A stretch of 64,000 nucleotides of DNA from Floccifex porci (lineage in GTDB: Bacteria > Bacillota_I > Bacilli_A > Erysipelotrichales > Erysipelotrichaceae), in contig NZ_VUMM01000002.1 of the NCBI RefSeq assembly GCF_009696175.1, positions 1 to 64,000 of the forward strand. Direction: 5' to 3'. Under the pieces are notes generated by a model. It worked only from the letters and a program-made list of their open reading frames with translations, did no database searches and was not told where the DNA came from. Positions 36,342 through 64,000 of the stretch are shown in pieces. The position numbers were made by a program, and so were the translations under genes. Each line of letters starts with the position of its first letter. The stretch's first letter is position 1.

Positions 36342-36382
36342 AAAAAAATAAGAAACACTGGTGAGGTGTTTCTTATTTTTTT
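36342..36382 (-). terminator. Terminator of the sigma-54 PTS operon
   Basis: 17-bp perfect stem AAAAAAATAAGAAACAC / GTGTTTCTTATTTTTTT. The HAD gene stop codon lies within it. Confidence 0.9.
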
Positions 36383-37032
36383 ATATAGGCTTTTATTTTA
36401 TTATAAGCTTCCAGAAAATCATAAAATGTATCATCAGCCAGACTCTGATCAAATCCGTATCTATGATCAATATGGGCCATCACAAAGATTCCTGCATTCT
36501 TAGCTGCCTGAATGCCATAAGTCGAATCTTCCAGTACAATACAATTTTCTTTTTTTACATTCAGTTTATTCACTGTATATAAATATATTTCAGGATTGGG
36601 TTTACTTTCTTTAAAATCTCTTCCTGAAACAATACAATCAAAATAGGATTCTAAATTACAGTCCTTTAAAAACTTTTCAATATCTTCTTTAGGAGAGGAT
36701 GAAGCAATTGCTGTTTTTATATTGTCTTGTTTTAATTTTGGCAGGATATATTTAATATAGGGATTGATTAGATCATTATAATTGAAAATCAGTTTTTCAC
36801 TGGTTTCATGATAGAAATCCATAAATGCATCTTCGCTTAGATTTTCCTGATACCATTCTGTCATCAGTTTTTTCTGTAAAGAATAGGAAGAACCAACCAG
36901 TTTATGAATTTCATTCAATGAAACGTTTTTCCCATGAGATTGATAAAACCTTTCGACTTTATCCATGAATAAGGGCTCTGAGTCAACCAGAACCCCATCC
37001 ATGTCAAATATTACCGCTTTATTTTCAATCAT
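36373..37032 (-). CDS. HAD-family hydrolase, beta-phosphoglucomutase-like
   Basis: 219 aa subfamily I HAD. Motif I is VIFDMDGVLVDSE (D9 and D11), motif II is AIASSSP, and motifs III/IV are FKESKPNPEIY and VLEDSTYGIQAA. The four-helix cap (residues 18-85) selects the substrate. It is either a sugar phosphatase or a phosphomutase. It is the last gene of the deglycase PTS operon, 1 base after the SIS gene. The fused HAD domain at 59576-61033 has the same SG-DFK-SKP-PEIY block, so this subfamily is tied to these deglycase loci. Confidence 0.88.
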   Translation of the reverse strand: MIENKAVIFDMDGVLVDSEPLFMDKVERFYQSHGKNVSLNEIHKLVGSSYSLQKKLMTEWYQENLSEDAFMDFYHETSEKLIFNYNDLINPYIKYILPKLKQDNIKTAIASSSPKEDIEKFLKDCNLESYFDCIVSGRDFKESKPNPEIYLYTVNKLNVKKENCIVLEDSTYGIQAAKNAGIFVMAHIDHRYGFDQSLADDTFYDFLEAYNKIKAYIKK

Positions 37033-37033
37033 A

Positions 37034-38029: not shown

Positions 38030-38052
38030 ATATTTTTACCTTCCTTTTCTAT

Positions 38053-38889: not shown

Positions 38890-39640
38890 CGTCCATACCT
38901 CCTTGAACTGTTACCTGATTACTGTTTGTGAAGTCAATTTTAATAAGTGCTGCAATCACACCCAAGAATGCGATTCCAACAACAGGCACTCCAAAATAAG
39001 AGGACAATAAGAATCCTAAAAAGAAGAATGGAGCCACTTTTTTGTTCATGATCATACGTGCTAACATCGCAAACCCCATAGCTGGTAAAATTCCACATGC
39101 GATGGACAATCCACTTGTTACCACGGCAGGAATCGCATCCACAACTGCCTGCATTTGAGAAGATCCCAACCAGAATCCAAAGAATGTAATCAGGAACAAT
39201 ACTGTACATGTGATAAACCCTGTTCCCATGTGAATCATTGTGATTGCTTTTACATTTCCTTTTGCGGCAAATTTATCAGCAAGATTTCCCATCATAGGTC
39301 TTACAATTGAAAACAGTACATTATCAATAGCCTGAGCCAGTAAAGCAATTGGAAATGCCATTGTGAAGGCAATTTCAGCTCCACCACCTGTTGTAATCGC
39401 AAACGCTGTTCCCAATACACCACCAACAATTACGTTAGGTGGAATAAATGCTCCAACTGAATATTGTCCTAAAAACGCAAGTTCCAGAGCCGCTCCTACT
39501 TCCACTCCTAATTTCAGATCTCCTAAAACCAGTCCAACCAATGGTCCAAGAACAATTGGTCTTTGAATTAAATTTGTTCCGGTTGCCAGATCACATTTTC
39601 CAATAAATGCGATGCAACCCAATAATAATGCTTGTAACAT
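38876..39640 (-). CDS. PTS mannose-family EIIC component (system 1)
   Basis: 254 aa membrane protein of about eight segments, with GPLVGLVLGDLKLGVEVGAALELAFLG (the typical sorbose/mannose IIC signature) near residue 32. Its C-terminal tail, GGMDDEDF, repeats the tail of the cognate IIA (EDEMDEDF). It is co-translated with EIID. Confidence 0.94.
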   Translation of the reverse strand: MLQALLLGCIAFIGKCDLATGTNLIQRPIVLGPLVGLVLGDLKLGVEVGAALELAFLGQYSVGAFIPPNVIVGGVLGTAFAITTGGGAEIAFTMAFPIALLAQAIDNVLFSIVRPMMGNLADKFAAKGNVKAITMIHMGTGFITCTVLFLITFFGFWLGSSQMQAVVDAIPAVVTSGLSIACGILPAMGFAMLARMIMNKKVAPFFFLGFLLSSYFGVPVVGIAFLGVIAALIKIDFTNSNQVTVQGGMDDEDF

Positions 39641-39654
39641 TCTCTCTTTCCTTT

Positions 39655-40125
39655 CTAAATTACTGTTTTTGCCAAAATTTTCTTTTCGTTAGAAGTCATT
39701 CGAATTTCAACTTCCACTCCACGATCTATCAATTCATGTAACATTTGAATCTCTTCTTCCGTTACATTCATCGCTTTTGAAATGCTCTTTGTATTTTCTT
39801 TTGCCTTAGTTCCACCTAAATTAATACTTTTAATAGAAGGACATCCATCGGCTAATTTTTTAACATCTTTGATTGATTCTGTAATGATCATTAATTTATA
39901 TTTGTCGGTTACTCCACTATTAATGGCATCAATTGAATCCTCAACGGATTTCATTACCAGTTTCACACCAGTTGGTTTAGCCAGTTTTAAAGATGTTTTT
40001 CTTAAATCATCTTTTGGAACTGCATCATTGGCAATCAGGATGCAATCTGCATTGATTGCTGAAGTCCATGTAAAAGCAACCTGTCCATGTAACAATCTAT
40101 GATCCACTCTAACTAGTTTTATCAT
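39655..40125 (-). CDS. PTS mannose-family EIIB component (system 1)
   Basis: 156 aa soluble EIIB. The phospho-His is H13 in RVDHRLLHGQVAF. It accepts phosphate from the IIA gene just upstream and gives it to the incoming sugar. Start ATG 40125 has AAAGGA ahead. Confidence 0.94.
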   Translation of the reverse strand: MIKLVRVDHRLLHGQVAFTWTSAINADCILIANDAVPKDDLRKTSLKLAKPTGVKLVMKSVEDSIDAINSGVTDKYKLMIITESIKDVKKLADGCPSIKSINLGGTKAKENTKSISKAMNVTEEEIQMLHELIDRGVEVEIRMTSNEKKILAKTVI

Positions 40126-40137
40126 CTTAAATCCTTT

Positions 40138-40551
40138 CTAAAAATCTTCATCCATTTCATCTTCAGGTTCACCCTGAATAACACCTATACCTTCTTTTGA
40201 ATGTTCCACTAATTTTTCAACTTCTTCCAAAGACAAATCATTCTGATAATTCATTGCCAGATCCAAAGCCAATCCCAGATTCATTCCTGATATAATCATG
40301 ACATGATCAAATTCTCTTAACTGTGATAAAGTCGTATGAACACTTCCCCCGAGCACATCACAAAGAACAATTATTTTTTCATTCTTTTCAGCCGCTTCTT
40401 TTTTCAGCTGTACATACAGATCGTTAGGACTCTGCCCAGGAAATAGGCTGATGGTTTCTATGCCATCTGCTAAATCTCCAGCAATCATCCTGACTGAATC
40501 CAACATACCATCAGATAATTTACCATGCGATGCAAAAATCAATCGACTCAT
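40138..40551 (-). CDS. PTS mannose-family EIIA component (system 1)
   Basis: 137 aa soluble EIIA with phospho-His H9 in FASHGKLSDG and the CDVLGGSVHTTLSQL block. It is the first gene of the operon, 42 bases downstream of a sigma-54 promoter, with AGGAGG 7 bases before ATG 40551. The C-terminus is acidic (EPEDEMDEDF). Confidence 0.94.
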   Translation of the reverse strand: MSRLIFASHGKLSDGMLDSVRMIAGDLADGIETISLFPGQSPNDLYVQLKKEAAEKNEKIIVLCDVLGGSVHTTLSQLREFDHVMIISGMNLGLALDLAMNYQNDLSLEEVEKLVEHSKEGIGVIQGEPEDEMDEDF

Positions 40552-40592
40552 TCATTCACCTCCTTTAATTTTATTTCCTTCACCAATATACA

Positions 40593-40608
40593 AGCAACTT
40601 TTGTGCCA
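40593..40608 (-). promoter_or_regulatory. Sigma-54 (-24/-12) promoter
   Basis: Minus strand TGGCACAAAAGTTGCT, with the invariant GG and GC dinucleotides 10 bp apart. It fits the consensus TGGCAC-N5-TTGC at every defined position. It drives IIA-IIB-IIC-IID-SIS-HAD and lies directly downstream of its presumed activator gene. Confidence 0.93.
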
Positions 40609-40624
40609 TAGAATAAAAATAAAT

Positions 40625-40662
40625 AAAAAATGATGAAATTTTATTTATTTTCATCATTTTTT
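40625..40662. terminator. Terminator of the sigma-54 activator gene
   Basis: 14-bp stem AAAAAATGATGAAA / TTTCATCATTTTTT with a 10-nt loop; it surrounds the TAA stop of the activator gene. It insulates the sigma-54 promoter, 17 bases further on, from read-through. Confidence 0.88.
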
Positions 40663-43337
40663 ACATATAAATAAATATATTTTATTTCTGCAAGTGGAAT
40701 TTCTACATGATAAAACTTTTCAATTGAATTCATTGCTTTCTTTGTAAATCCAATAAATGTTTCATTTTCTCTTTCAAAATCTGTACAATCTTCATATTCA
40801 TATTGATTTTTTGATATGATCAGTCTTTCAATCATAGAACAAATATGAATGTATAAGCCAAAACATGTACGATTTGACAAATGCATTCTTAAATACATCT
40901 GCAGCTGATCAATGGCATTGGCCACTTGTTCTAATAGTTTTGTTGGATTTAAAATTGTTAGAACATTCATCAGATTGGATAGAGAAAAATTCTTAAGTAT
41001 ATTTTTATTAAAGGTTTCTAATTCTTCTTCACTCATTAAATTATAAAAATAAGAATTCATTCCTTCATAGTTTGCCTGTGTAATCAAATCTTCTACACCC
41101 ACATAATTTAAACCTTCAATATCTGGATTCAATGTACCAATCATAAATAAGACATTGTATTCTTTAAATAATGGATTGTTGTCTTTATGAGTCAGTAAAA
41201 ATGAATAATCCTGAATTTTTACTTCGACATTGATTCCACCAGGTAAAGACTCTTCTAGGATATCTTTAAATCGATTGGACGTTTCAATACCACTTGCACA
41301 GGAACAAAGAATAATGGATTTCTTTATTTTTCTTTCCATTATATGATACGTACAGCTGCTGGCTTCACTTACTCTTTTCAGAAGTTCATTCATTTCAATA
41401 CCTTGTCGAATTCCATTTCCTATCGCTAATGCAATCGGTGTAGAAACATGATCGATAATTCCTACATTCACATTGTCTATCTTTAATCCATTATATATTT
41501 CCGCTAAGCTTCCCATATCCACCAGCAGATACAGATCTTTTATATGACCCATCCGAAATAAATAGGCATTCAATCGATCTACGATCATTTGTGTATCCGT
41601 ATTGATAGGCATATCCAGAGAATCAAATATATATTCCTGCAGCAGTTGATTGGCAGCTTCTGCCATGCTGCTGGCCGTTGAATAGCCATGAGACAGAATC
41701 ACACAGGCTTTCTGTTCTGCTTTTTTTATACGGGAAGGATTGTATATATAAAATATAAATGTATCAATCATGATCGATAATAAATCTATATCAAAATAAG
41801 ACTGTAAATATTTACAGATTTCAAAAGCAATATTAGTTGTTCGATAATATTCATTCTGAAGAATTTCATGAAGATCTTCACATTCTTCTTCATTTTTTAT
41901 ATACCAGTTCCAATAATCATTTGTTTCATCAATCACTTCCTGTATATAATACGCAATGGCTCTTCTTTCATTATTTGTGACTTTAAAACCATAACGATCA
42001 TCCACTACATTTAAAATATGGTCGATTCCCTTTAAATAATAAGACTGTTCAATTTTAGATTCTTTTAAGATCACTGCATCAAAATAATCACCAATGATCT
42101 TCTTACCTTTTTCCATTAAAATAGAAACATCTTTATGTATTTTATATTCTTTAAAACAATTTAATATCGATTCATTTAATCGTATAATTTCTTTTGACTG
42201 ATTACTGTGAATTTTTAAATCATCCACAAATATAAATTCTTTATTATTTGTATGAAAAGCCCCTGTCTGATAATTTTTTAAAATAGAATCTGGTAAACTA
42301 TTCAATCGAATCGTAATAACATCTTCTTTTTTATCCAGTAAAGAATTTATACAGCTGGATTGAATAACCCCTTTCAATTCCCCTACATTACCTTTAAACT
42401 GTTCTGTCATTAAAATCGAATACACCTGGCTGCTTAAACGAATTTTTGAATTCAATCTTAGCTGTTCATTATAAAAAATTGTATAAATCAATTCCAGTCG
42501 TTCCTGAGATGTCCTTTCATTTAATGATGGAATGGAAATCACCATTGGAATTCTTCGCATTAAGGTTTTCAATAATACATTATCTGGATTTTCGGTTGTC
42601 GCAAAAATAATTCTTGCGTTAGAAGAATACCATTTCTCATTATCTCCCACTCTGTGATAAATCCCCTGGTCCATATAAGTGAATAATTTTTCCTGACATT
42701 CGGCTTTTAAATCGTGTACTTCATCTAAAAATAAAATTCCTCCATCAGCTAAGGAAATCAATCCTTCATTGTCTTTATCAGCGCCCGTAAACGCTCCTTT
42801 CACATGTCCAAATAAATTCGCAGTCAATAATTCTGGATTATTGGCATATTCTGAACAATTCACAGTCACAAATTTTCCTTTATTTGATAACAGATTCTCA
42901 TTCAAAGCCCATTCATAAGTTAATCTGGCAATATAGCTTTTTCCTGTTCCGGTAGGTCCATACAATAACATAGGCAATCCATTAGGTGGATAGGAAATGG
43001 TTGATTTGCATTTGTTCACTGTGCTTTTTAAAGAATACTGATATCCTACTAATTTTGAAAAAGCATCTACATCCTTATGATTTACTAATTCATTAAAGTT
43101 TAAATACGTTTTCTTATTTACTTCAATATTTTCACTCTTTAAATATTCCAGACTGATAAAATAAAATGGTTTTTCATCAATTCGTATAATTTTATCTTCT
43201 TCTAATAATTTATTTAATACGATTGCACAGGTATTTTTGGGAATCTGAAAAGACTTACTGATATTTAATATGGTATTTTCCGAATATTTCTTTTCAAAAC
43301 TGTTTTTATTTATATAATTCAAAATTGTATTCTTCAT
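40641..43337 (-). CDS. LevR/GfrR-type sigma-54-dependent activator with PTS domains
   Basis: 898 aa. An N-terminal winged helix (residues 1-65) is followed by an AAA+ domain with Walker A GPTGTGKS (127-134), GAFTGA (181-186), the sigma-54 contact loop, and Walker B ILFLDE (201-206). Then come PRD1 (about 400-510), an EIIA-Man-like domain (CVILSHGYSTASS), an EIIB-like domain with CSCASGIETS, and PRD2. Phosphorylation by HPr and the cognate EII sets its activity. It activates the adjacent promoter; its binding sites are probably in its own 3' coding end. It is divergent from rpoN. Confidence 0.93.
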   Translation of the reverse strand: MKNTILNYINKNSFEKKYSENTILNISKSFQIPKNTCAIVLNKLLEEDKIIRIDEKPFYFISLEYLKSENIEVNKKTYLNFNELVNHKDVDAFSKLVGYQYSLKSTVNKCKSTISYPPNGLPMLLYGPTGTGKSYIARLTYEWALNENLLSNKGKFVTVNCSEYANNPELLTANLFGHVKGAFTGADKDNEGLISLADGGILFLDEVHDLKAECQEKLFTYMDQGIYHRVGDNEKWYSSNARIIFATTENPDNVLLKTLMRRIPMVISIPSLNERTSQERLELIYTIFYNEQLRLNSKIRLSSQVYSILMTEQFKGNVGELKGVIQSSCINSLLDKKEDVITIRLNSLPDSILKNYQTGAFHTNNKEFIFVDDLKIHSNQSKEIIRLNESILNCFKEYKIHKDVSILMEKGKKIIGDYFDAVILKESKIEQSYYLKGIDHILNVVDDRYGFKVTNNERRAIAYYIQEVIDETNDYWNWYIKNEEECEDLHEILQNEYYRTTNIAFEICKYLQSYFDIDLLSIMIDTFIFYIYNPSRIKKAEQKACVILSHGYSTASSMAEAANQLLQEYIFDSLDMPINTDTQMIVDRLNAYLFRMGHIKDLYLLVDMGSLAEIYNGLKIDNVNVGIIDHVSTPIALAIGNGIRQGIEMNELLKRVSEASSCTYHIMERKIKKSIILCSCASGIETSNRFKDILEESLPGGINVEVKIQDYSFLLTHKDNNPLFKEYNVLFMIGTLNPDIEGLNYVGVEDLITQANYEGMNSYFYNLMSEEELETFNKNILKNFSLSNLMNVLTILNPTKLLEQVANAIDQLQMYLRMHLSNRTCFGLYIHICSMIERLIISKNQYEYEDCTDFERENETFIGFTKKAMNSIEKFYHVEIPLAEIKYIYLYVKNDENK

Positions 43338-45012: not shown

Positions 45013-45033
45013 AAGTCGAAATTATTTCGACTT
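45013..45033 (-). terminator. Terminator of AraC-type gene 1
   Basis: 9-bp stem AAGTCGAAA / TTTCGACTT with TTA loop, then TTTTTTTT on the minus strand; includes the stop codon. Confidence 0.85.
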
Positions 45034-46203
45034 ATAGATTTTATTCGCGTATTCTGTAGGACTGATATTATATTCCTGTTTAAAACGTCTTGAAAAATAA
45101 TGAATAGAGGAAAATCCTAATAAATTGGATATCTCTGATATTGTATATTTACTTTCTCGTATTAATTCTTTACTTTTATTTAATTTTGTATTTAAAATAT
45201 AGCGCTTAGGAGCAATGTTCAAATTATTATTGAATAAATTCTGTAGAGAACTTCGACTTAAACCAAAACGCTGACACAATTCTTCCACATTATTAAAATC
45301 ACTGAATACATTTTCATTAATATATAATAATATTTCATTCAACAATTCATTTTCAAAATTCTGCTGCATAGGAGTACTGGCTACTTTTACAACTTCTTCA
45401 TTATTACTTGTCATTAACTCATAAACAATACGATTTAATGCTTCAAACATTAACAGATTGCTGTGTTCTCCATCTGTAGAAGAACCTTGTACAAACAAAT
45501 CCAAAGCTGCCTTCGCTTCTCTTCCAATTTTAAAAATATGATTCATTAAAGATTCTTTTTGTGCTTCTAAATCAATATCCATATCAATGATAATGGATAA
45601 ATACGAACAGGGATTGTCTTCTGTTCTCTGTCGATGAAACTGATCTGGAGCATAAATCATTAAATCATTGGAATGCAGAACATATTCTTTTCCTTCAATG
45701 GTTGTATATAAAGTACCTGAATCCACATATGTAATTTCCCAGTATTTAATGGATTCTCCCTGAAAACTGTAATGGTGATTTCGAACATTATAGTAATACG
45801 CAATTAATTCATTAATATGTAAAGTGGGAAGAATTCTTTGATACGTATATTCCTGATTTAAAAATACATTTTCGATTCGACAGCCATTTATAAAAGCAAG
45901 TTCAATTTTTGATATTTTTCCTAATGGCACAAAGTTAAAATAAAATCCCTTATTGATTTTTATAATTCTATGAATCACAAATTCATCATATTCTTTATTT
46001 TCTGGATTCTCTGTAATAACCAGCAAAGCAATCCCATCTAACACTTTTAAATATATATCTTCGCTTGCCTTTAAAAAATAAGTAATCGTGTCACTTGTCG
46101 CATTTAAAACATAATTATTCTGGTGTATACTTTTATTCCTTGTGTAATCTGTAAATACTTCACCATATTTTAGAAAATCAAGGCTTGAAGTTTTATTGAA
46201 CAT
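45022..46203 (-). CDS. AraC-family regulator 1
   Basis: 393 aa. The C-terminal AraC domain (residues 295-390) has two helix-turn-helix units, EELCQRFGLSRSSLQNLF and ISEISNLLGFSSIHYFSRRFKQ. The N-terminal 200 residues include a cupin-like part (WEITYVDSGTLYTTIEGKEYVLHSNDLMIY). ATG 46203 (MFNKTSSLDF) follows AAGGGG. It lies downstream of the IIB-IIC-IID operon on the same strand. A close paralogue is divergent on the other side (48838-50001). Both probably sense an amino sugar or its derivative. Confidence 0.9.
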   Translation of the reverse strand: MFNKTSSLDFLKYGEVFTDYTRNKSIHQNNYVLNATSDTITYFLKASEDIYLKVLDGIALLVITENPENKEYDEFVIHRIIKINKGFYFNFVPLGKISKIELAFINGCRIENVFLNQEYTYQRILPTLHINELIAYYYNVRNHHYSFQGESIKYWEITYVDSGTLYTTIEGKEYVLHSNDLMIYAPDQFHRQRTEDNPCSYLSIIIDMDIDLEAQKESLMNHIFKIGREAKAALDLFVQGSSTDGEHSNLLMFEALNRIVYELMTSNNEEVVKVASTPMQQNFENELLNEILLYINENVFSDFNNVEELCQRFGLSRSSLQNLFNNNLNIAPKRYILNTKLNKSKELIRESKYTISEISNLLGFSSIHYFSRRFKQEYNISPTEYANKIYKSK

Positions 46204-46236
46204 TATAACCCCTTTCATTTTTCAAAACGTATAAAA

Positions 46237-46257
46237 AGACTCGAATAAATCGAGTCT
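46237..46257 (-). terminator. Terminator of PTS system 2
   Basis: 8-bp stem AGACTCGA / TCGAGTCT, loop ATAAA, then TTTTTAT on the minus strand. Confidence 0.83.
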
Positions 46258-46287
46258 CTTATAAGAGAGTAATTTATGCAATTGGAA

Positions 46288-47160
46288 TTATCCGACTGTC
46301 CAAGGAACTGGTACAAGTGGTGTATAAGAACCAGTCCAGATACCAAATACAGCTCCTACAATACCAATTACTAAGATTAGACCAATACATTTAACTGGTG
46401 TCCAACCTTTTTTCTTAATCAAGAAGAACATCAATAATGTTAACAATAATGGTAATAAACAAGGTAAGATCATATCCAGGTAGTTTTGAATAACGATTGG
46501 ACTTTCACCATTTGCGATAGTGATTCCTAAACGAGTTCCACCACCATAGTTAGCAATTAAGGCACCTACAACGAATACTCCTAATACAGAAGCAGCGTGT
46601 GTAAATTCCTGAGCGAATTCTGTCATCATGCTGACAGCTTTCATACCTAAATTATATGACCAGTACATCAAACCATAACGTAATGCCATTTCGCATCCGA
46701 ATAAGATAATGAAGTATAGAACTGGTCCAACAAAAGATCCATTAATAGCCATATTAGCTGTTAAACCAGCAGTAATAGGTACTAATGTATACCAGAATAA
46801 TGCATCCCCGATTCCTCCTAATGGAGCTGCAACGGAAATACGTACGGAACGGATTGTCTGGCAATCAGTTTTTAACTGTTCCATTGATAATACAATACCC
46901 ATAACAAATGTAACAGCGAATGGGTGTGTATTGATGAAGTCCATGTTGTGAGTCATAGATGTAGCTAAGTCATCTTTGTTTGTATGGATTTCCTGTAAAC
47001 CTGGTAACATAGCCCATAACCAACCAGCAGATTGCATACGTTCATAGTTGAATGCAGCCTGTAATTGACATGAACGCCAGATCATTTTAGTTAACGTTTT
47101 CTTGCTGACACGAGAAGCTGGAGTAGTATCTACATATCTTAAGTTTTGATTAGATTCCAT
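46288..47160 (-). CDS. PTS mannose-family EIID component (system 2)
   Basis: 290 aa. It has the IID pattern KMIWRSCQLQAAFNYERMQSAG at the N-terminus, APLGGIGDALFWYTLVPI centrally and membrane segments towards the C-terminus. ATG 47160 lies in the IIC end with AAGGAGGT 8 bases ahead. A GTG 3 bases earlier is less likely. The substrate is probably N-acetylgalactosamine or galactosamine, from the surrounding AgaS, NagA and GatZ genes. Confidence 0.93.
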   Translation of the reverse strand: MESNQNLRYVDTTPASRVSKKTLTKMIWRSCQLQAAFNYERMQSAGWLWAMLPGLQEIHTNKDDLATSMTHNMDFINTHPFAVTFVMGIVLSMEQLKTDCQTIRSVRISVAAPLGGIGDALFWYTLVPITAGLTANMAINGSFVGPVLYFIILFGCEMALRYGLMYWSYNLGMKAVSMMTEFAQEFTHAASVLGVFVVGALIANYGGGTRLGITIANGESPIVIQNYLDMILPCLLPLLLTLLMFFLIKKKGWTPVKCIGLILVIGIVGAVFGIWTGSYTPLVPVPWTVG

Positions 47161-47941
47161 CACTCATACCTCCTTCTGCAATTTTCTTATTTAATCCACT
47201 GATACGGAAGTCATTCAATGCGATAAAGATTCCTAAGAATGCAACTAATAATAATGTTGCAGAACCTAATACAGCGATGTTTCCAATTACCAATGCACAA
47301 ACGAAACCAGCTAATAAATAACCCCACATATCGTTTGCTAACATAATTTTTAATAAGATAGCGAAACCTACGAAACGCATCATTCCACCAGCAGCACTTA
47401 ATCCACCCATGAACCATGAAGCGTTAGCAGCCAATGCTTCCAATGTACCAGACATAGCAACTCCACCAACATAAGCGATGATTGCGATTACGGCGAATAA
47501 TCCACCTAAGATACACATAGAAGTATTTAATACAGCTGTAATTCCTTTAGGATTTGCTTGTTCAGCAGCTTTGTCTGCTTTAGCCATTAAACCAGACATA
47601 ACTGTAAATGTTAATGTTACAACGTATTGACCGAAAGTAGCGAAGATCATACAAGCACCTAAAGCGGCATTGATATCCATTTTAGCTTTAACAGCGAAGA
47701 TCATCGCAACAACAGATCCTAATACAGCGTTAGGAGGCTGAGCCCCACCAACTGGCATGTTACCAATCATCATTAATTCATATGTACCACCGATTACAAG
47801 TCCTGTTTGAACATCACCTAAGATCATACCGATGATAGGACAAGCAACGATTGGACGATACATAATTTCTGTTAATGAGAATTGGTCAATAGCAAAAATA
47901 AAAGTTACGATTGCTAATAAAATAATTTCGATAACATTCAT
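47150..47941 (-). CDS. PTS mannose-family EIIC component (system 2)
   Basis: 263 aa membrane protein with CPIIGMILGDVQTGLVIGGTYELMMIG near residue 33, the sorbose/mannose IIC signature. The tail GGMSDGI matches the tail of the remote IIA at 51465-51899 (DDFSDGI), supporting their pairing. GGAGAAG lies ahead of the start. Confidence 0.93.
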   Translation of the reverse strand: MNVIEIILLAIVTFIFAIDQFSLTEIMYRPIVACPIIGMILGDVQTGLVIGGTYELMMIGNMPVGGAQPPNAVLGSVVAMIFAVKAKMDINAALGACMIFATFGQYVVTLTFTVMSGLMAKADKAAEQANPKGITAVLNTSMCILGGLFAVIAIIAYVGGVAMSGTLEALAANASWFMGGLSAAGGMMRFVGFAILLKIMLANDMWGYLLAGFVCALVIGNIAVLGSATLLLVAFLGIFIALNDFRISGLNKKIAEGGMSDGI

Positions 47942-47985
47942 ATTTTTTTCTTCTCCAATTCTAATAAATGCTTATTATCTGGATC

Positions 47986-48462
47986 TTATTTCCACAATTT
48001 ATCCAGATCTTCTGCAGCATATTGTGGAACTCGACGAATTTCTAGTTCAACACCCATATCCTGCAATTTTTTGAAAGTAGCAACATCATCGTCATCTACA
48101 GCTACGCTTGTAGCAACCTGACGTTTACCTTCAGACATGTGCATGTTCCCAATATTTACTTTTTTAATAGGAACTCCACCTTCCACAAGTCTTAATACGT
48201 CCTGTGGTGTTTCACAAATAATCGCAATCATCTGTTTTGGACTTGCTTTTCCAATGATCTGAATTGTTTTGTCAATTGAGAAATATCTTGTTTGAGCATA
48301 TCCTGGTGCTGCCATATTCATTAATCCCTGACGTAATTTATCAGTTGATACAGCATCATTAGCAACTAACAACAAATTTGCTCCTACAGATCCACACCAT
48401 TGTGTAGCAACCTGACCATGAATCAAACGATTGTCAATTCTTGTTAAAACGATATTTGGCAT
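47986..48462 (-). CDS. PTS mannose-family EIIB component (system 2)
   Basis: 158 aa with phospho-His H15 in RIDNRLIHGQVATQW. It is the first gene of the IIB-IIC-IID operon. No IIA gene is attached; the phosphate donor is probably the IIA in the agaS-nagB operon about 3 kb away. GGGAGAG precedes the ATG. Confidence 0.93.
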   Translation of the reverse strand: MPNIVLTRIDNRLIHGQVATQWCGSVGANLLLVANDAVSTDKLRQGLMNMAAPGYAQTRYFSIDKTIQIIGKASPKQMIAIICETPQDVLRLVEGGVPIKKVNIGNMHMSEGKRQVATSVAVDDDDVATFKKLQDMGVELEIRRVPQYAAEDLDKLWK

Positions 48463-51464: not shown

Positions 51465-51899
51465 TTAAATTCCATCTGAGAAATCATCATTTTCTACTGT
51501 TTCTTCAACAGGAGCCAATTCAAAACGAATGATTTGATCTTTTCCTGTATTTAAAGCAGTATTCACTAAAGATTCCAGATCCATACCAAATTGACGAGCC
51601 ATTACAACTTCTGCTAGCATTGGAAGGTTTGTTCCTGCCACAATTTCAATATTTTTATAAGATTGAGAAACAATAACCGCTGTTTTAAATGGTGAACCAC
51701 CAGCTAAATCCGAGAATACAATAATTCCATCACAATCCTGTAATGATTCGATTGCGTTTGTTAAATCGGCTGTTAACTGATCCACTTCCTGTTCAAAATT
51801 AACAGCAACATATTTTTCCTGTGGTCCTGCAATTAAATCGATTGAACTTGTCAATCCAGAAGCAAAACGACCATGACCTGTTACGATAATTCCTACCAT
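51465..51899 (-). CDS. PTS mannose-family EIIA component (system 2)
   Basis: 144 aa with phospho-His H9 in IVTGHGRFASG and the FSDLAGGSPFKTAV block. It is placed between agaS and nagB and not beside the other PTS genes, but its C-terminal DDFSDGI matches the IIC of system 2. AGGAGG lies 4-5 bases before the ATG. Confidence 0.93.
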   Translation of the reverse strand: MVGIIVTGHGRFASGLTSSIDLIAGPQEKYVAVNFEQEVDQLTADLTNAIESLQDCDGIIVFSDLAGGSPFKTAVIVSQSYKNIEIVAGTNLPMLAEVVMARQFGMDLESLVNTALNTGKDQIIRFELAPVEETVENDDFSDGI

Positions 51900-56548: not shown

Positions 56549-56574
56549 AATAAGACTGAAAAATCAGTCTTATT
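56549..56574 (-). terminator. Terminator of gatZ-like gene
   Basis: 11-bp stem AATAAGACTGA / TCAGTCTTATT with AAAA loop; the minus-strand product ends in TTTTTTT. It includes the gatZ stop codon. Confidence 0.87.
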
Positions 56575-57883
56575 AGAACAATTCACTTTGATGTGTAGCG
56601 TATAAATATTCATCAATGGAATCACAAATACGATCAACAATTAAAGCCTCTGGATCATTTTCTAATAATCCTTCTCTGACTCTAGTATATTGAATTGGCA
56701 TATATTGTGTCAATAAATTTAGAGGAATGCCATTTGTACGAAGATTCTGAATCATTGTCTGCATTGCCTGTTTTACTTCAGGAACTGGCATATAATAACG
56801 ACAACGATCGGAGAATGAATATTTACGTTTTAAAGCTACTTCTTCTTCCGTTCCAATATAATGTTTGGACCAGTATTTTGTATCTTTCAACATAGCTGCA
56901 TCCAATACATCTTTGAAATGAGAAGCTTTGTCTTTTAATAATTCATTTTCAATATCGGCTAAGGCAAACAGAGCCTGACGCATCATGAAAGTAAATCCAG
57001 GACCTACTTTTAAAATCGCAATTCCATCTTCTACCATTTCTCTTAATTTGATTTTTGTCTGATAATCCGTTGAATGTCCTTCAAATACAATATTGTCATA
57101 ATCACGAATGGCTGCACATAAATCTACTGCTTTAGCACGATCGTATTCTGTACATCCACTGTCTTTTTCTTCAACCCCTGGCTGAACAACAATACCAATG
57201 ACATTGCTCCATGCATGGTCTAGACCATTGTCTTTAAACGCTTTTTCAAATGTATTTAAAGTTGCTTTGAAATCTTCTGGTTTTGTGACCTGAACCCCTT
57301 CATCCACAGCACCCTGTGCTCCACCAGGAATAGGAACTTCACTACCAACAATATAAACAGGTTCAATCGCATCTGGATTGGTTTCTAATAATTTCGCATA
57401 GGCTTCTTCTGCTACTTTAGCCAGACGAGCTCCACGACGTGCAATGGTTTCATCACTTAAACGAGTGTTCACATCATCATCTTTTACACGCATACTTGTA
57501 TCGATATGAATCTTTGTGAATCCAGCACTTACATAACAGCGGATCAGTTCATCGGCTTCTTTCATAGCTTCTTCTTCATTCATAGAAGTGAAAGTTAATG
57601 GTCCTAAATGATCTCCACCCAGGAATAATTTATTTGTATCAAATCCAATTTCTTTTGCGATATCTTCCACAAATGCTTTAAAATCAGCTGGTTTCATTCC
57701 TGTATATCCACCATACTGATCACACTGATTGGCTGTACTTTCAATTAATACACATGAATTATCTTTTTTCCCTTTTAATAAAGCTGCACGAATAACATAT
57801 TCATTGGCAGAACAACAGGAATAAATTCCAACCGCTCTTCCTTCTTTCTGTGCTTTTACAATTTGTTTTAATGGATTTTGCAT
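56573..57883 (-). CDS. Tagatose-1,6-bisphosphate aldolase non-catalytic subunit (GatZ/KbaZ family)
   Basis: 436 aa GatZ/KbaZ protein: GIYSCCSANEYVIRAAL, VLIESTANQCDQYGGYTGMKP, FLGGDHLGPLTF and a C-terminal SDRCRYYMPVPEV. In Escherichia it stabilises the class II aldolase GatY/KbaY, whose gene is not in this window. It fits GalNAc breakdown through tagatose 6-phosphate. ATG 57883 follows AGGAGG; the TTG at 57901 is rejected. A TATAAT on the minus strand about 30 bases upstream may be its -10. Confidence 0.88.
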   Translation of the reverse strand: MQNPLKQIVKAQKEGRAVGIYSCCSANEYVIRAALLKGKKDNSCVLIESTANQCDQYGGYTGMKPADFKAFVEDIAKEIGFDTNKLFLGGDHLGPLTFTSMNEEEAMKEADELIRCYVSAGFTKIHIDTSMRVKDDDVNTRLSDETIARRGARLAKVAEEAYAKLLETNPDAIEPVYIVGSEVPIPGGAQGAVDEGVQVTKPEDFKATLNTFEKAFKDNGLDHAWSNVIGIVVQPGVEEKDSGCTEYDRAKAVDLCAAIRDYDNIVFEGHSTDYQTKIKLREMVEDGIAILKVGPGFTFMMRQALFALADIENELLKDKASHFKDVLDAAMLKDTKYWSKHYIGTEEEVALKRKYSFSDRCRYYMPVPEVKQAMQTMIQNLRTNGIPLNLLTQYMPIQYTRVREGLLENDPEALIVDRICDSIDEYLYATHQSELF

Positions 57884-57984
57884 AGTATATATCCTCCTCA
57901 AAAAGGATTATATTCTTTCTATTTTTGTAAAAAAACTGCCCTACCATTAAGTACAAAATTCAAATTAAAAAGGTAAAATAATCA

Positions 57985-58743
57985 TTATAAAATATTAAAA
58001 TGTATCAATGCATTATAGATTCCATCGTAATCGATATCATTTGTCACATAACTTGCCATTTCTTTTAATTCATCCACCGCATTTCCCATTGCGACACCAA
58101 TATTTACTTCTTTTAACATATCCTGATCGTTGAACCCATCTCCAAAAGCCATAGATTCTTCTTTAGATAGATTATATAAATGAAGAAACTGTTTAATTGC
58201 CTTTCCTTTTCCTCCATCTTTAGAAACAATGTCTACTGCATATGGATTCCATCTTGTAATCAGACAATCCTTTAACAATTTCTTTAATTCTTTTTCCTGT
58301 TCTTCATTCACAAATCCAATTCCCTGATAAATCACATTTCCGTTATATTTTTTAATTTCAGGAACCGCTGTATGAATGCTCTTTTGTGCAAATCGAACAT
58401 AGTCATTTACATAATTGATATAAAAATCTTTTTCTTCCAGTAACTGGATCGGATATTTATTCTGAACAAAAAGATCGATCAATGTATGATTTATGACTGG
58501 ATTTGACCATATCACCTGTTTTTCCTTATTTAAAATCAATTGCCCATTTAATAAAATCCAGGCATCAAAATCCATATAAGAAAAATTCATTTCTTCCAGT
58601 TCTTTCATATGACGACCGGTACATAATACTCTTAAGATTCCTTTCTCTTTTAAAGCCTCTAACGATTGTATTGTGCTTTCTGGTATCTGATTTGTATTAT
58701 GAGACAATAAAGTCCCATCTACATCAAAAAATATTACTTTCAT
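57985..58743 (-). CDS. Cof-type HAD hydrolase
   Basis: 252 aa: motif I FFDVDGTLLSHNTNQIPES, motif II VLCTGRH, and FGDGFNDQDMLKEVNIGVAMGNA as motif IV, with a C2B cap between. A sugar-phosphate phosphatase of unknown target. It lies 2 bases behind the GntR gene and ends the deglycase PTS operon that enters from the right. Confidence 0.9.
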   Translation of the reverse strand: MKVIFFDVDGTLLSHNTNQIPESTIQSLEALKEKGILRVLCTGRHMKELEEMNFSYMDFDAWILLNGQLILNKEKQVIWSNPVINHTLIDLFVQNKYPIQLLEEKDFYINYVNDYVRFAQKSIHTAVPEIKKYNGNVIYQGIGFVNEEQEKELKKLLKDCLITRWNPYAVDIVSKDGGKGKAIKQFLHLYNLSKEESMAFGDGFNDQDMLKEVNIGVAMGNAVDELKEMASYVTNDIDYDGIYNALIHFNIL

Positions 58744-58745
58744 AA

Positions 58746-59546
58746 TTATCGCCTTACATCCACTTCAAAAGACATACGATCGATTGAACATGTTAAATAC
58801 TCTACAATGATCAGGCGATTTAATTCATCATAATATTGTGTTTCAATATGATAGACTAGTTCGTTTTCCTTTAGTCTTAAAACTTTTCCGACGTTTTCAT
58901 CCGCAATGACAGGATGTAGACTTCGTTTGGCTTTCATCAATCTTATTCCATAATTTTTTTCAAATGTTTCCACAATAGAATGAGTTTTCAATTCCTCCAT
59001 ACATCGATCAAATTTAGGAGCCGTTTTTTCAAACACAAAGAAATGTAAAATCATAGTAGGAAATCCATATTCATCTAAAACACGAGTAATTGAATAAACT
59101 TTATCTTCTTCTTTAATGGCCCGAAATGTACTATTTGAAACTTTATATTTTTCTAATAGATTCTTATTATATAACGTTTCAAACTCGATGATTTTAGATC
59201 GATTTTCTAAATCAATTCCCTTTTCAAAAGAAAAAGATACATATTCTTTAAATAAATTCTTTTGTGGAATTTCCATAACATACGTTCCACTTCCTTTTTT
59301 CCGTCCAATTAAATTTTCCTTTATCAATTCGCTATATGCCTGACGAATCACTGGACGAGATACATTAAGTGATTTACACAATTCTTCTTCTGTTGGTAAC
59401 TGGTCAAAAGGTTTATAGGCTCCGCTTAATATTAAACTTTTTATTTGTTCTTTTAATTGAAAATAAAGAGGAACAGCAGAATCACGATTTATACTTAAGA
59501 CATTTAATGTTGCTTCTGTTGTCAAATCATTCACCCTTTCTTCCAT
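58746..59546 (-). CDS. GntR-family regulator with UTRA domain
   Basis: 266 aa. The GntR winged helix is residues 22-90 (VPLYFQLKEQIKSLILSGAYKPFDQLPTEEELCKSLNVSRPVIRQAY) and the UTRA ligand domain about 110-260. Proteins of this type sense phosphorylated sugars or amino-sugar phosphates. It is cotranscribed with the kinase/HAD and deglycase genes, 29 bases behind, and probably represses that operon. The start has only a weak ribosome site (GGATATAG). Confidence 0.9.
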   Translation of the reverse strand: MEERVNDLTTEATLNVLSINRDSAVPLYFQLKEQIKSLILSGAYKPFDQLPTEEELCKSLNVSRPVIRQAYSELIKENLIGRKKGSGTYVMEIPQKNLFKEYVSFSFEKGIDLENRSKIIEFETLYNKNLLEKYKVSNSTFRAIKEEDKVYSITRVLDEYGFPTMILHFFVFEKTAPKFDRCMEELKTHSIVETFEKNYGIRLMKAKRSLHPVIADENVGKVLRLKENELVYHIETQYYDELNRLIIVEYLTCSIDRMSFEVDVRR

Positions 59547-59575: not shown

Positions 59576-61033
59576 TTACATAAAAATTTTCAGATAATTC
59601 TTTATTTCTTTAAAAGAATTAAATTTTAATATACCTTCAACGTTTTTATTCATTTCATTTTTAAGACACAATACGTCTAATTGTGCATTCAAAGCAGCCT
59701 GTAATCCATAAATCGAATCTTCTATCACAAAAATATGTTTCCGATCTATATTCAATTTCACAACCGAAGCGTTATATATTTCTGGATCAGGTTTTGAGTT
59801 TTTAAAGTCCCATCCACTGACAATGAAATCAAAATAAGGCTCCAATTTACATTGTTCTATCATTTGTTCAATTTCTTTTTTCTGAGAACTGGATACAATT
59901 ACACAAACAATGTGATTTTTCTTACAATATTCTAATAATTCAATCACATCCGACATAATATATTGGGAATAATCAATTGGATATCCTTTAAAAAAATCGT
60001 CACGAAGAATCTTAAAATCTTCTGGATTCATATCAAATTTCTGGCTCATATAAGATAATTGAAAAAGATCACTGGAACCGTATAAAAGACAATAATCTTC
60101 CTGTGTAAATGTTTGATGGTATTTCTGACAGAAACATTCATAGACTTTCATCCAATGTTTTTCACTGTCAACCAGTACTCCATCCATATCAAATAGAATT
60201 GCCTTTAGCTCTTTCTTTTGAAAAGGAAACCCTATTCCTCCTTCAATCTGACATATTTCTTTTGAAAAAGTGGCAGCCAATTGAAAAGAAGAAGTTAAAC
60301 CGGAAAGAACAGGCTTTGATTTTTTCCATCCCTGTTCCACTAAAGAAGTCACAAATCGACTAATAAAGGCATCTCCTGCTCCCATTGTATCAATTGGTTT
60401 AATATAATCAATGATTCCTTCATAATAACTGGAATGGTAATATAAAAGCGGATTTAAACTGGATCTTGTGATCAAAACAGGAATATTAAATGGATAGGCA
60501 TTTAAAAACTGCTGTATTTTTTCCATTGGAGCATCAGAAAAAGAAAATTGAGCAAAATCAATATAAGGAACAATTTTATCTAAATAATCTTTCTCTCTAT
60601 ATTTTTCTTTTTCTCCAAAATCATAAACAATAATTCCATCTGTATGAATGTTTCTGATTTCATTTTCTAATTTTGAATTACAACTTGTAAAAATCACATC
60701 AAAATCAAAATCAATATTTAATAATGGATTCCCTGGCCAATCTTCTTTTAGATCCACTTTAATAAATTGTCTTTCTCCATGTAAACGATTCTGAATACAA
60801 CATTTTGTCGATCCTTTATGATATGTACATAGATCTATATTCACATTCATACTTTTCAAGACTTGTACCAAATGTTTGCCATAATCATCTAGTGCTATTT
60901 TTCCATAATAATACGAAGAATATCCTAATTTTGCACAATTGATTGCAACATTGACTGCGTTTCCACCAGGAAAACAAACGCCTTCATTTTGATATACATC
61001 AAATACATTGTCTGAAAAACTTAGTATTTTCAT
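59576..61033 (-). CDS. Fusion of PfkB-family sugar kinase (FrlD-like) and HAD hydrolase
   Basis: 485 aa, one continuous frame. Residues 1-270 are a PfkB/ribokinase-type kinase closest in look to fructoselysine 6-kinase: SDNVFDVYQ, CFPGGNAVNVAINCAKLG, and the catalytic DTMGAGDAF. Residues 275-485 are a beta-phosphoglucomutase-like HAD: ILFDMDGVLVDSE, CVIVSSS, WDFKNSKPDPEIY and VIEDSIYGLQAA. The start overlaps the deglycase stop (TAATG). A kinase joined to a likely phosphatase, in an operon where the PTS already phosphorylates, is odd. No frameshift or stop separates the halves. Confidence 0.87.
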   Translation of the reverse strand: MKILSFSDNVFDVYQNEGVCFPGGNAVNVAINCAKLGYSSYYYGKIALDDYGKHLVQVLKSMNVNIDLCTYHKGSTKCCIQNRLHGERQFIKVDLKEDWPGNPLLNIDFDFDVIFTSCNSKLENEIRNIHTDGIIVYDFGEKEKYREKDYLDKIVPYIDFAQFSFSDAPMEKIQQFLNAYPFNIPVLITRSSLNPLLYYHSSYYEGIIDYIKPIDTMGAGDAFISRFVTSLVEQGWKKSKPVLSGLTSSFQLAATFSKEICQIEGGIGFPFQKKELKAILFDMDGVLVDSEKHWMKVYECFCQKYHQTFTQEDYCLLYGSSDLFQLSYMSQKFDMNPEDFKILRDDFFKGYPIDYSQYIMSDVIELLEYCKKNHIVCVIVSSSQKKEIEQMIEQCKLEPYFDFIVSGWDFKNSKPDPEIYNASVVKLNIDRKHIFVIEDSIYGLQAALNAQLDVLCLKNEMNKNVEGILKFNSFKEIKNYLKIFM

Positions 61034-62034
61034 TAGTATTCCACCGTTCTATAATAACGTCTAATATCCAGTGAATGTTTTGTGATGGCTTCCATATTTT
61101 TTGATATACGCTGAAGGATTGCATTCATGACAACCCATGTTAAATAAGGTCTAAATGAATCGGATATATGAGGATACACAAAATCATGACAATCAAATAC
61201 ATTGGCTTCTTTTGTGTATTTTTCTATAAATCCTTTCACTCTTAAATCAATTTCTCTGGTTTTTCCTTCGGTAACCAGTAAAGTGACAGGAACATTTTGT
61301 TCAATCAATTCCAGTGTTCCATGAAAGAATTCTGCACTGGAAACGGATTTAGTACGGATCCATTGACTTTCTTCCAGAACACACATAGAAAATGCATAAC
61401 AGACAGGCCATAATTCATTGGAAGCCACCCAGATATGATATGGAGCATTGTGATATTTCTGACAATACGCAATCGCTTTTTCATCTACCTGTTTTCGAAC
61501 CGAACATAGAACTTCTGGCAAATATTCCAGTTCTTTGGCAAAAGTTGGATAATCCAAAAAATAACCTTTATTAAATAATATTTTCCCAATAACTATATAT
61601 AAGATCAACTCCTGTGGTCTTCCATCTTCATATACTATGGAATAATCACTTAATTCTTCTAAAATAGAATTTCCTTTTCCAATTACAGAAACAATGGTTG
61701 CATTTGTATTGGCTTTAATATACTGAGCAGCCGCTACCGTTTCTTTTGTATCTCCGGACTTGCTTGCCATAAAGACTAGAGTAGTATCCTTTAACTGGTT
61801 CATTCCTGTATAGATCAATTCACTGGATAAATAAGAATAAACTGGCAAATCACTCATTTCATTGATCCAGCAACGAAACGGATCCATCATAGCCTGAGAT
61901 CCACCTACTGAAGAAAATAATATATTTGAAAATCCTTTTTCACATACTTCATCCGCAATTTTTTCAATCTGCGCTTTTTTAGAATAAATATGTGCTCCAA
62001 TTTTTAAAAAGTTCTGTTCATCATAATTAATCAT
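61033..62034 (-). CDS. SIS-domain protein, fructosamine-6-phosphate deglycase-like (system 3)
   Basis: 333 aa, paralogue of the protein at 37034-38029: two SIS domains with FMASKSGDTKETVAA in the first and SVSSAEFFHGTLELIEQN plus the LDIRRYYRTVEY end. ATG 62034 (MINYDEQNF) is used; it aligns with the paralogue's start, while ATG 62043 would stand 1 base from AAAGGA. The likely reaction is cleavage of a 6-phosphorylated Amadori compound to glucose 6-phosphate and an amine. Confidence 0.82.
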   Translation of the reverse strand: MINYDEQNFLKIGAHIYSKKAQIEKIADEVCEKGFSNILFSSVGGSQAMMDPFRCWINEMSDLPVYSYLSSELIYTGMNQLKDTTLVFMASKSGDTKETVAAAQYIKANTNATIVSVIGKGNSILEELSDYSIVYEDGRPQELILYIVIGKILFNKGYFLDYPTFAKELEYLPEVLCSVRKQVDEKAIAYCQKYHNAPYHIWVASNELWPVCYAFSMCVLEESQWIRTKSVSSAEFFHGTLELIEQNVPVTLLVTEGKTREIDLRVKGFIEKYTKEANVFDCHDFVYPHISDSFRPYLTWVVMNAILQRISKNMEAITKHSLDIRRYYRTVEY

Positions 62035-62058
62035 ATTGTCCATTTCCTTTATAAAAAT

Positions 62059-62077
62059 GCACCCGATAAACGGGTGC
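62059..62077 (-). terminator. Hairpin between EIID and SIS genes (intraoperonic terminator)
   Basis: 7-bp G/C-rich stem GCACCCG / CGGGTGC with loop ATAAA, then ATTTTTAT on the minus strand, in the 51-base gap inside the operon. It should partly stop transcription, giving more PTS than deglycase mRNA. Confidence 0.75.
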
Positions 62078-62085
62078 TAAATTGT

Positions 62086-62901
62086 TTACATCCAACCTAA
62101 GAATGATAAAATAATACCCGCAATGATAATTGCGATAATCATTACAATTGTATTTGCGTTTTTCTTTTTAAATAAGTAGAAAATAAAGAATACAAATGCC
62201 AATGGTAAAATATTTGGAAGCACATTATCAAATATAGATTGTACTGTCGCTCCTTCAATTCCATAAACTAAGTTATCTGAGAAAGCAAAAGATACATAGC
62301 TAGGAATCAATCCACCAACAACTGTAACCCCTAAAATTCCTGCCGCATCTGTTAAATATTTGGAATAAGACGAAATAGAAGACACCGCTTTATTTCCTAA
62401 TACATATCCAATTTCCGCAAACCAGATACGGCTGATGGCAGCAATGAACCAAATTAAGATATATAGAATCGGTCCTAATACCGAACCACTTTGTGCTAAA
62501 GAACAGCAAATTGCAGCACTGATTGGAAGTAAAGTAAACCAGAAAATCGCATCTCCTAATCCAGCGAAAGGTCCAAATAAACCATTTCGGATTCCTTCAA
62601 TCAATTTACGATCTTCTCCAGCTTCTTCCATGGCAATAATAATTCCCATCAGGAAAGTCGCCATATGCATTTCTGTATTCATAAATTCCATATTATACTG
62701 CATAAATTCTTTCATATCTTCATCAGAATCTTTGAAGATTTTTTTTGCAGTTGGAATCATGGATTCTGTAAAACCACAAGCCTGCATACGTTCAAAACTA
62801 AAAGAACTTTGTTCAATTACTGAATATAAACCCATCTTATGGATGTCTTTTTTAGTGACTTTTCCACGTTCTTTTCCATTTAATAATTTATTAGATGCCA
62901 T
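62086..62901 (-). CDS. PTS mannose-family EIID component (system 3)
   Basis: 271 aa: KMGLYSVIEQSSFSFERMQACGF at the N-terminus, GPFAGLGDAIFWFTLLPI centrally, then membrane segments ending in IILSFLGWM. ATG 62901 (MASNKLL) has GGAGG 8 bases ahead inside the IIC end; the frame from 62919 has no such site. Confidence 0.93.
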   Translation of the reverse strand: MASNKLLNGKERGKVTKKDIHKMGLYSVIEQSSFSFERMQACGFTESMIPTAKKIFKDSDEDMKEFMQYNMEFMNTEMHMATFLMGIIIAMEEAGEDRKLIEGIRNGLFGPFAGLGDAIFWFTLLPISAAICCSLAQSGSVLGPILYILIWFIAAISRIWFAEIGYVLGNKAVSSISSYSKYLTDAAGILGVTVVGGLIPSYVSFAFSDNLVYGIEGATVQSIFDNVLPNILPLAFVFFIFYLFKKKNANTIVMIIAIIIAGIILSFLGWM

Positions 62902-63682
62902 CTTCTTCGCCTCCATCATAAACTACGGCTTTTGCAGCTGTATCATCAATTTTCTTATTATACATAAAATTAATTGCAGCCAGAGCAATTCCCACAATCG
63001 CAATTGGAAGAACATTTGGCATATCTAAGAATGTTGCCATAATAAATCCAATGAATAAATATGGAGCATTCTGTTTCTTCAAAGTAACCATCAATAATAA
63101 ACCTAACCCAATAGCTGGTAATAAGTTTCCAGCCACTTCAAATCCATGAACCAGCCATACAGGGAATGTATTCACAAAAGCCTGAATTGCGGATTGTGCT
63201 GCATAAGCACAAAGGAATACCATAACTGCATATCCAATCGCAACAATAAATACACCTGACCAAGTCCATTTTCTAAATGCTTTTGTATCGGCTTTTTCAG
63301 CAGCAGCATCACAGCGATGAGCAATGAATGCGAACAATGAGTTACAGACGATACCATACCATTGTGCCAGTAATGCGAATGGTAAAGATAAACCTAACGC
63401 GGTTTCTGCCGATTGTCCCGTTGTATACGCAATAACCATTGTCATCATACCTGCCATCAAAGCATCTGGTGGAACCGTTCCACCAACTGTCAACAATCCT
63501 AAATACGATAATTCAGCTACCGCACCACATTTAACACCCAGACTAATGTCGCCTAGAGCAATCCCCGCAAAGAATGCAACGACCATTGGACGGAACCAGT
63601 AAAAAGCTTCCCAGCATTTATCAACTGCACAAATAAATGCGACTAATGCAAGTAAAATCCCTTGCATAAATGTAATTGTCAT
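62891..63682 (-). CDS. PTS mannose-family EIIC component (system 3)
   Basis: 263 aa membrane protein with RPMVVAFFAGIALGDISLGVKCGAVAELSYLG near residue 31. It ends in DGGEEDGI, the same kind of acidic -DGI tail as system 2. Co-translated with EIID (11-base overlap). Confidence 0.93.
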   Translation of the reverse strand: MTITFMQGILLALVAFICAVDKCWEAFYWFRPMVVAFFAGIALGDISLGVKCGAVAELSYLGLLTVGGTVPPDALMAGMMTMVIAYTTGQSAETALGLSLPFALLAQWYGIVCNSLFAFIAHRCDAAAEKADTKAFRKWTWSGVFIVAIGYAVMVFLCAYAAQSAIQAFVNTFPVWLVHGFEVAGNLLPAIGLGLLLMVTLKKQNAPYLFIGFIMATFLDMPNVLPIAIVGIALAAINFMYNKKIDDTAAKAVVYDGGEEDGI

Positions 63683-63709: not shown

Positions 63710-64000
63710 TTAAATATCAATACGTTTGTTTCCTGGAGCAATTTGAATATATACATCCACTCCTTTTGCTTTCATTGCTTCGAAATCTTCCAGATCCTGA
63801 TCGTCTACATACACATGGGCTTCTTTGTATGTTACTTTTCCAGGTGCAGAATGCATATTTCCAACATTGACAGCTTTAATTGGCACTCCACCATCAATCA
63901 GCTTACGCATTGCCTGTGGATTCTTACAAACCAAGAAAATCAATTGTTTTGGACTTGCCTTTGAAATCACATCAATTGTTTTTTGAACGGTAAAAAAGCG
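63710..64000 (-). CDS. PTS mannose-family EIIB component (system 3), 5' end outside window
   Basis: The last 96 residues of an EIIB are visible, from RFFTVQKTIDVISKASPKQL to APGNKRIDI. They align with IIB of system 2 (RYFSIDKTIQIIGKASPKQ). The phospho-His lies in the missing N-terminal part. The frame is open to the window edge, so the gene is cut there and is not short. Confidence 0.92.
   Translation of the reverse strand, partial: RFFTVQKTIDVISKASPKQLIFLVCKNPQAMRKLIDGGVPIKAVNVGNMHSAPGKVTYKEAHVYVDDQDLEDFEAMKAKGVDVYIQIAPGNKRIDI

Follow-up and report, generated by a model that had tools for sequence, protein, structure and literature searches.

The window, the 64,000-nucleotide stretch of Floccifex porci DNA analysed here, encodes a single polypeptide in which a FrlD-like PfkB kinase is joined to a HAD-IA domain, and this fusion is genuine rather than the result of an assembly join. 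It represents a new domain arrangement inside a known kind of pathway and is well conserved where present. Judged by the protein families involved, the surrounding operon has a Gfr/Frl-like gene content to which a FrlD-type kinase and a HAD have been added (Table 1), and through it this gut bacterium probably degrades conjugates of sugars and amino acids that heated food supplies. Such food is rich in Amadori compounds, with phosphorylated intermediates that are potentially toxic for bacteria (PMC4941530). As a tentative explanation, which by analogy with known enzymes we place first while holding it at somewhat under even odds, the kinase half would act on fructosamines and the HAD half would be a phosphatase serving as a safety valve for surplus or uncleavable phospho-fructosamine. 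The joining of a kinase to a likely phosphatase would then suggest that some gut Firmicutes have built overflow control into a catabolic enzyme. More generally, PTS-deglycase operons repeatedly bear a HAD-IA protein, for which none of the curated models used gives a function-assigning match.

Table 1. Coordinates of the fusion, its neighbours and related genes (window positions unless a contig or locus is given).
Feature	Position	Strand	Evidence or remark
Fusion gene, 485 aa: FrlD-like PfkB kinase (residues ~1-270) and HAD-IA (~275-485)	59576..61033	minus	
Kinase domain, residues 1-272	60218..61033	minus	PfkB (Pfam) E=2e-16; NF007321 FrlD; Foldseek
HAD-IA domain, residues 273-485	59576..60217	minus	HAD_2 (Pfam) E=3e-31; conserved columns; Foldseek
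SIS-domain deglycase-like protein, 336 aa, GfrF/FrlB type	61033..62043	minus	identities; NF008481 80 bits, below cut-off
PTS EIID, mannose/sorbose/galactosamine family	62086..62919	minus	PF03613 E=3e-83
PTS EIIC	62891..63682	minus	PF03609 E=2e-62
PTS EIIB, continues past the window; 155 aa complete on contig	63710..64000	minus	NF007288 127 bits
GntR/UTRA regulator	58746..59546	minus	41% identity to that of the Stoquefichus operon
Cof-type HAD-IIB hydrolase	57985..58743	minus	homologue in Gemmiger operons
PTS EIIA, possible EIIBCD partner	51465..51899	minus	39% identity to the EIIA behind the L025 fusion
GlmS-like SIS, divergent from EIIB, just past the window	C12:64334-65458		61% identity to the Stoquefichus divergent SIS
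Separate HAD-IA ending a kinase-less PTS-deglycase operon	36373..37032	minus	41% identity to the fused HAD
HAD-IA/Cof HAD-IIB fusions	L039 8007-9575; L043 8007-9575; L045 2003-3571; L041 8135-9568		

Reality and distribution of the fusion

The fusion gene is one open reading frame running from ATG to stop without internal stops, and it is in phase with its own operon, since its start codon begins at the final base of the SIS gene ahead of it (TAATG). The two halves follow each other without a linker in the sequence, and the AlphaFold model, built with 61 related sequences (mean pLDDT 93.9, pTM 0.72), likewise lacks a disordered linker. A metagenome-assembled genome of Candidatus Stoquefichus (recorded as L025, L079, L083 and G301), belonging to another family of the same order, carries an equal end-to-end fusion of 499 aa, 45% identical to that of the window across residues 1-482, and both have the junction motif KELKA(I/V)(L/I)FDMDGV. 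The uninterrupted 485-residue protein described in the first-pass annotation is therefore confirmed, together with the two motifs singled out there, DTMGAGDAF (residues 215-223) and the DMD of FDMDGV (residues 281-286). That annotation had named separate halves in the relatives, combined with an assembly join, as grounds for abandoning the fusion; the first part holds, as most relatives encode kinase and HAD separately, but the second does not, because the fusion recurs, with its junction motif, in a genome from another family, so that an assembly artefact or the reading through of two neighbouring genes is extremely improbable and, for practical purposes, refuted.

The proposed search for the fusion elsewhere thus yielded one further genome. 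Screens of 316 genomes of the order, plus samples of the class (395 genomes) and the phylum (392) that overlap the order set, turned up no third case; with two genomes only, the fusion is rare. No PfkB-HAD fusion was found in the literature covered by our search. Stops within kinase matches were also considered as possible kinase-stop-HAD neighbours, an idea that was dropped, as the gene immediately behind the kinase is not a HAD at any of those loci.

The operon and its relatives

On the minus strand, the genes of the operon are ordered EIIB-EIIC-EIID-SIS-fusion-GntR-Cof hydrolase-KbaZ-like-Cof hydrolase. The SIS protein shares 39% identity with the GfrF-position SIS of a Klebsiella PTS operon and 24% with E. 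coli FrlB. The set that defines Gfr systems (a mannose-family EIIABCD with GfrE- and GfrF-type SIS proteins) is represented by EIIBCD, this SIS and the divergent GlmS-like SIS, with EIIA distant at 51465; at other loci EIIA is in the same operon. FrlD proteins are recognized by a gene directly beside a FrlB/GfrF-type SIS deglycase, and the fusion has this location, with a 1-base overlap; in nearly all relatives the kinase is also directly behind the SIS. The operon content thus bears out the first-pass annotation in placing a FrlD-like kinase beside a deglycase and a PTS, and its gene families lead us to infer an Amadori or Heyns compound as the substrate. Within the same operon, the KbaZ/GatZ-like protein (56573-57901, minus strand) has no adjacent KbaY/GatY, and the only class II aldolase match in the genome is on another contig (C34). 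A strong GC hairpin, T-rich in its tail, lies on the minus strand between EIID and SIS (62059-62077) and could be an attenuator or processing site.

The Stoquefichus locus is ordered EIIB-EIIC-EIID-SIS-fusion-EIIA-EamA-DeoC-GntR. Lachnospiraceae, Oscillospiraceae (Gemmiger) and Solobacterium have their genes arranged as IIB-IIC-IID-SIS-kinase-GntR-(DeoC)-IIA-HAD, with separate kinase and HAD genes, as in such operons of many Clostridia. Contig C8 of the same genome as the window carries GntR-GntR-SIS-kinase-SIS-IIA-IIB-IIC-IID-HAD, again with each gene separate, while L026, the nearest unfused relative, has PTS, SIS and kinase and no HAD. Several loci have a gene for an EamA exporter after the HAD or, in the fused case, after the fusion and EIIA; the window's own operon showed no such gene. 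The puzzle raised at first, that the PTS should already phosphorylate the substrate, is not peculiar to the fusion, as PTS, SIS and FrlD-like kinase occur together in many Firmicutes.

Where a mannose-type PTS adjoined the SIS-kinase pair, 12 of 14 loci had a HAD-IA gene or the fusion, against none of the nine loci where it did not (Fisher p=7e-5, n=23 loci, although the relatedness of the loci reduces this to two supported independent pairs, at most five). These loci were scored by hand, and the distant HAD of L030 (20% identity, upstream of SIS) was counted as absent. A HAD is also found in a kinase-less PTS-SIS operon, whereas the kinase loci that have no PTS beside them showed none. Together these observations suggest, but no more than suggest, that the HAD goes with the PTS and the kinase with the deglycase. 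That kinase-less operon (36373-43337, minus strand) is the second PTS-deglycase operon of the window and consists of a LevR-like sigma-54 activator, EIIA, EIIB, EIIC, EIID, SIS and HAD. A third mannose-type PTS (IIB-IIC-IID, 46288-48462) adjoins an AraC-type regulator gene (window 45022-48462).

The kinase loci without a mannose-type PTS carry an ABC-type binding protein (L037) or a 6-phospho-beta-glucosidase beside the SIS-kinase pair (L033 3445-4869, L034 422-2386 and L047 1786-3225, the last also with a PTS EIIC); at the L028 kinase locus, no transporter was recognized within reach. The glucosidase neighbours suggest that glucosylated (disaccharide) Amadori compounds are used, a case in which the kinase would have to act after the PTS. 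In Gemmiger and its relatives, the operon HAD-IA is itself fused to a Cof-type HAD-IIB, giving a double-phosphatase-like protein of ~480-520 aa.

The two halves of the protein

The kinase half has its best NCBIfam match in the FrlD model NF007321 (93.6 bits over residues 1-233, below the cut-off of 247), shares 26% identity with E. coli FrlD and has fructokinases and ketohexokinase as its structural matches in Foldseek. It keeps the conserved D12 and both motifs of the PfkB family, G23-G24-N25 and D215-T-M-G-A-G-D221. In the T-x-G-x-x-G loop, the second glycine is lost across the kinase's subclade, the unfused L026 included.

The HAD half has the motifs of HAD-IA phosphatases (D282/D284, S382, K414 and E438/D439, with a helical cap in the model), all of them kept in both fusions. 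The expectation that both domains carry catalytic residues therefore stands, as both look intact, though with the altered loop of the kinase. Among the curated models, the best for this half are the beta-phosphoglucomutase family and HxpB, each below its own cut-off (the HxpB hexitol phosphatase model NF008087 gives 80.4 bits against 191).

Origin of the fusion

Both the kinase and the SIS trees recover the topology (Stoquefichus, (window, L026)), with supports of 99/88 and 99/89, in which the fusions do not group to the exclusion of L026; nevertheless, a single fused clade was not clearly rejected by topology tests (kinase p=0.069, HAD p=0.39). The fusion may have arisen by one event followed by loss in L026 or by two events, and the shared junction (KELKA..FDMDGV) favours a single origin. 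The fused HADs share a clade (100/98) with orphan HADs of unrelated contexts, apart from the operon HADs, and a clade uniting fused and operon HADs is rejected (AU p=0.008), as is with it the idea that the operon's own HAD gene was joined to the kinase. The HAD domain was therefore probably recruited from a generic HAD, filling the place that operon HADs hold elsewhere.

Possible function

In the mechanism that we propose, the PTS would import Amadori or Heyns compounds (fructoselysine-like) and deliver them as 6-phosphates, which the SIS proteins would split into an amino acid and hexose-6-phosphate. The kinase half would phosphorylate fructosamines that arrive unphosphorylated in the cytosol (glycated peptides, other importers), and the HAD half would hydrolyse phospho-fructosamine that accumulates or cannot be cleaved. 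The build-up of 6-P-fructose-aspartate is indeed toxic, as are phospho-Amadori compounds when the deglycase is absent (PMC4941530), and in E. coli the HAD phosphatase YigL eases the stress caused by PTS-made sugar phosphates by letting the sugar exit (PMC4021124). The kinase half could thus recapture free fructosamine while the HAD half drains the phosphorylated surplus, the fusion setting phosphorylation and relief at a fixed 1:1 ratio, and low affinity of the phosphatase would keep the two from cycling wastefully under normal flow. In favour of this explanation are the intact HAD motifs, the joint occurrence of kinase and HAD in unfused PTS-SIS operons, the pairing of HAD with PTS and the EamA exporters of several loci. 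Several points count against this explanation: HAD-IA phosphatases are promiscuous, which makes substrate assignment hard; the fused HADs lie apart from the operon HADs in the tree, so that their functional equivalence is an assumption; the pairing of HAD with PTS reflects few independent events; L026 has no HAD; the window's operon showed no EamA gene; and the kinase loop is altered.

Alternatively, the substrates of the two halves could differ within one pathway: the kinase would take fructosamines, and the HAD some other phosphate ester made there, such as a by-product of the deglycases or of the aldolase branch, or a damaged sugar phosphate. We regard this as unlikely, if less so than the readings that follow. 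The fused HAD is nearest to generic, orphan HADs, and aldolase genes occur at these loci: the KbaZ-like gene in the window and DeoC in L025, L029 and L031. However, no aldolase is common to both fusion loci, and the HAD genes track the PTS-SIS core and not any aldolase. The DeoC (deoxyribose-phosphate aldolase) genes of these PTS-deglycase operons score well over the model cut-off (L025 8812-9528, L029 7667-8371).

That one half is a passenger or regulator, weak though catalytic-looking and kept for oligomerization or control, seems improbable. The kinase domain, with its changed nucleotide-loop motif, is on a long branch (1.5 against 0.54-0.64), but the SIS of the same operon is likewise on a longer branch, and the catalytic residues of both halves are retained between two fusions at 45% identity. 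We give little credence to a position editor, in which the PTS would place the phosphate where the deglycase cannot use it and the HAD would remove it for the kinase of the same polypeptide to re-add correctly, an ATP-driven two-step stand-in for a mutase. For the release of a free sugar after deglycation, this analysis found no positive support.

A true mutase, an option of the first-pass annotation, has lost ground and is now very doubtful. The HAD half does match the beta-phosphoglucomutase family model TIGR02009 (90 bits) and the folds of beta-PGM and putative beta-PGMs (3e58, TMt 0.84; 3kbb, TM1254, 0.82), but TIGR01990 gives only 72.4 bits against a cut-off of 189.4, and H20, R49, K117 and N118, residues that have roles in L. 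lactis beta-PGM, are replaced by W, D, Q and K (the reference sequence showed one mismatch when compared with 1lvh). Because these residues are missing, the HAD half is more likely a phosphatase than a mutase.

Comparison with known systems

As in the E. coli Frl system (FrlB deglycase, FrlD fructoselysine 6-kinase), a SIS gene lies directly ahead of a PfkB kinase of the same group, and the regulator is of the GntR type. In contrast to Frl, the window operon has a PTS in place of the FrlA permease, no FrlC epimerase nearby and a kinase fused to a HAD, and the identities to FrlD and FrlB are low. With the Gfr system of Salmonella and Enterococcus (GfrABCD PTS, GfrE and GfrF deglycases), for which chemistry and gene content have been described (PMC12675984), it shares the mannose-family PTS and two SIS proteins, one of them GlmS-like, whereas Gfr has neither kinase nor HAD and a sigma-54-type activator instead of GntR. 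The unfused PTS-SIS-kinase-GntR-IIA-HAD operons of Gemmiger, Lachnospiraceae and Solobacterium have an equal gene set, kinase and HAD both included, but as separate genes, the HAD of Gemmiger being joined to a Cof-type HAD instead. E. coli YigL is similar in the proposed role, the dephosphorylation of surplus PTS-made sugar phosphate, but it is unfused and of another HAD subclass than the fused HAD-IA, which we do not claim as a YigL member. Finally, plant FHy/RFK, a HAD FMN hydrolase joined to riboflavin kinase, is a precedent for a natural HAD phosphatase-kinase fusion with opposed activities (PMC2972280), although it differs from the fusion described here in kinase family, domain order and substrate.
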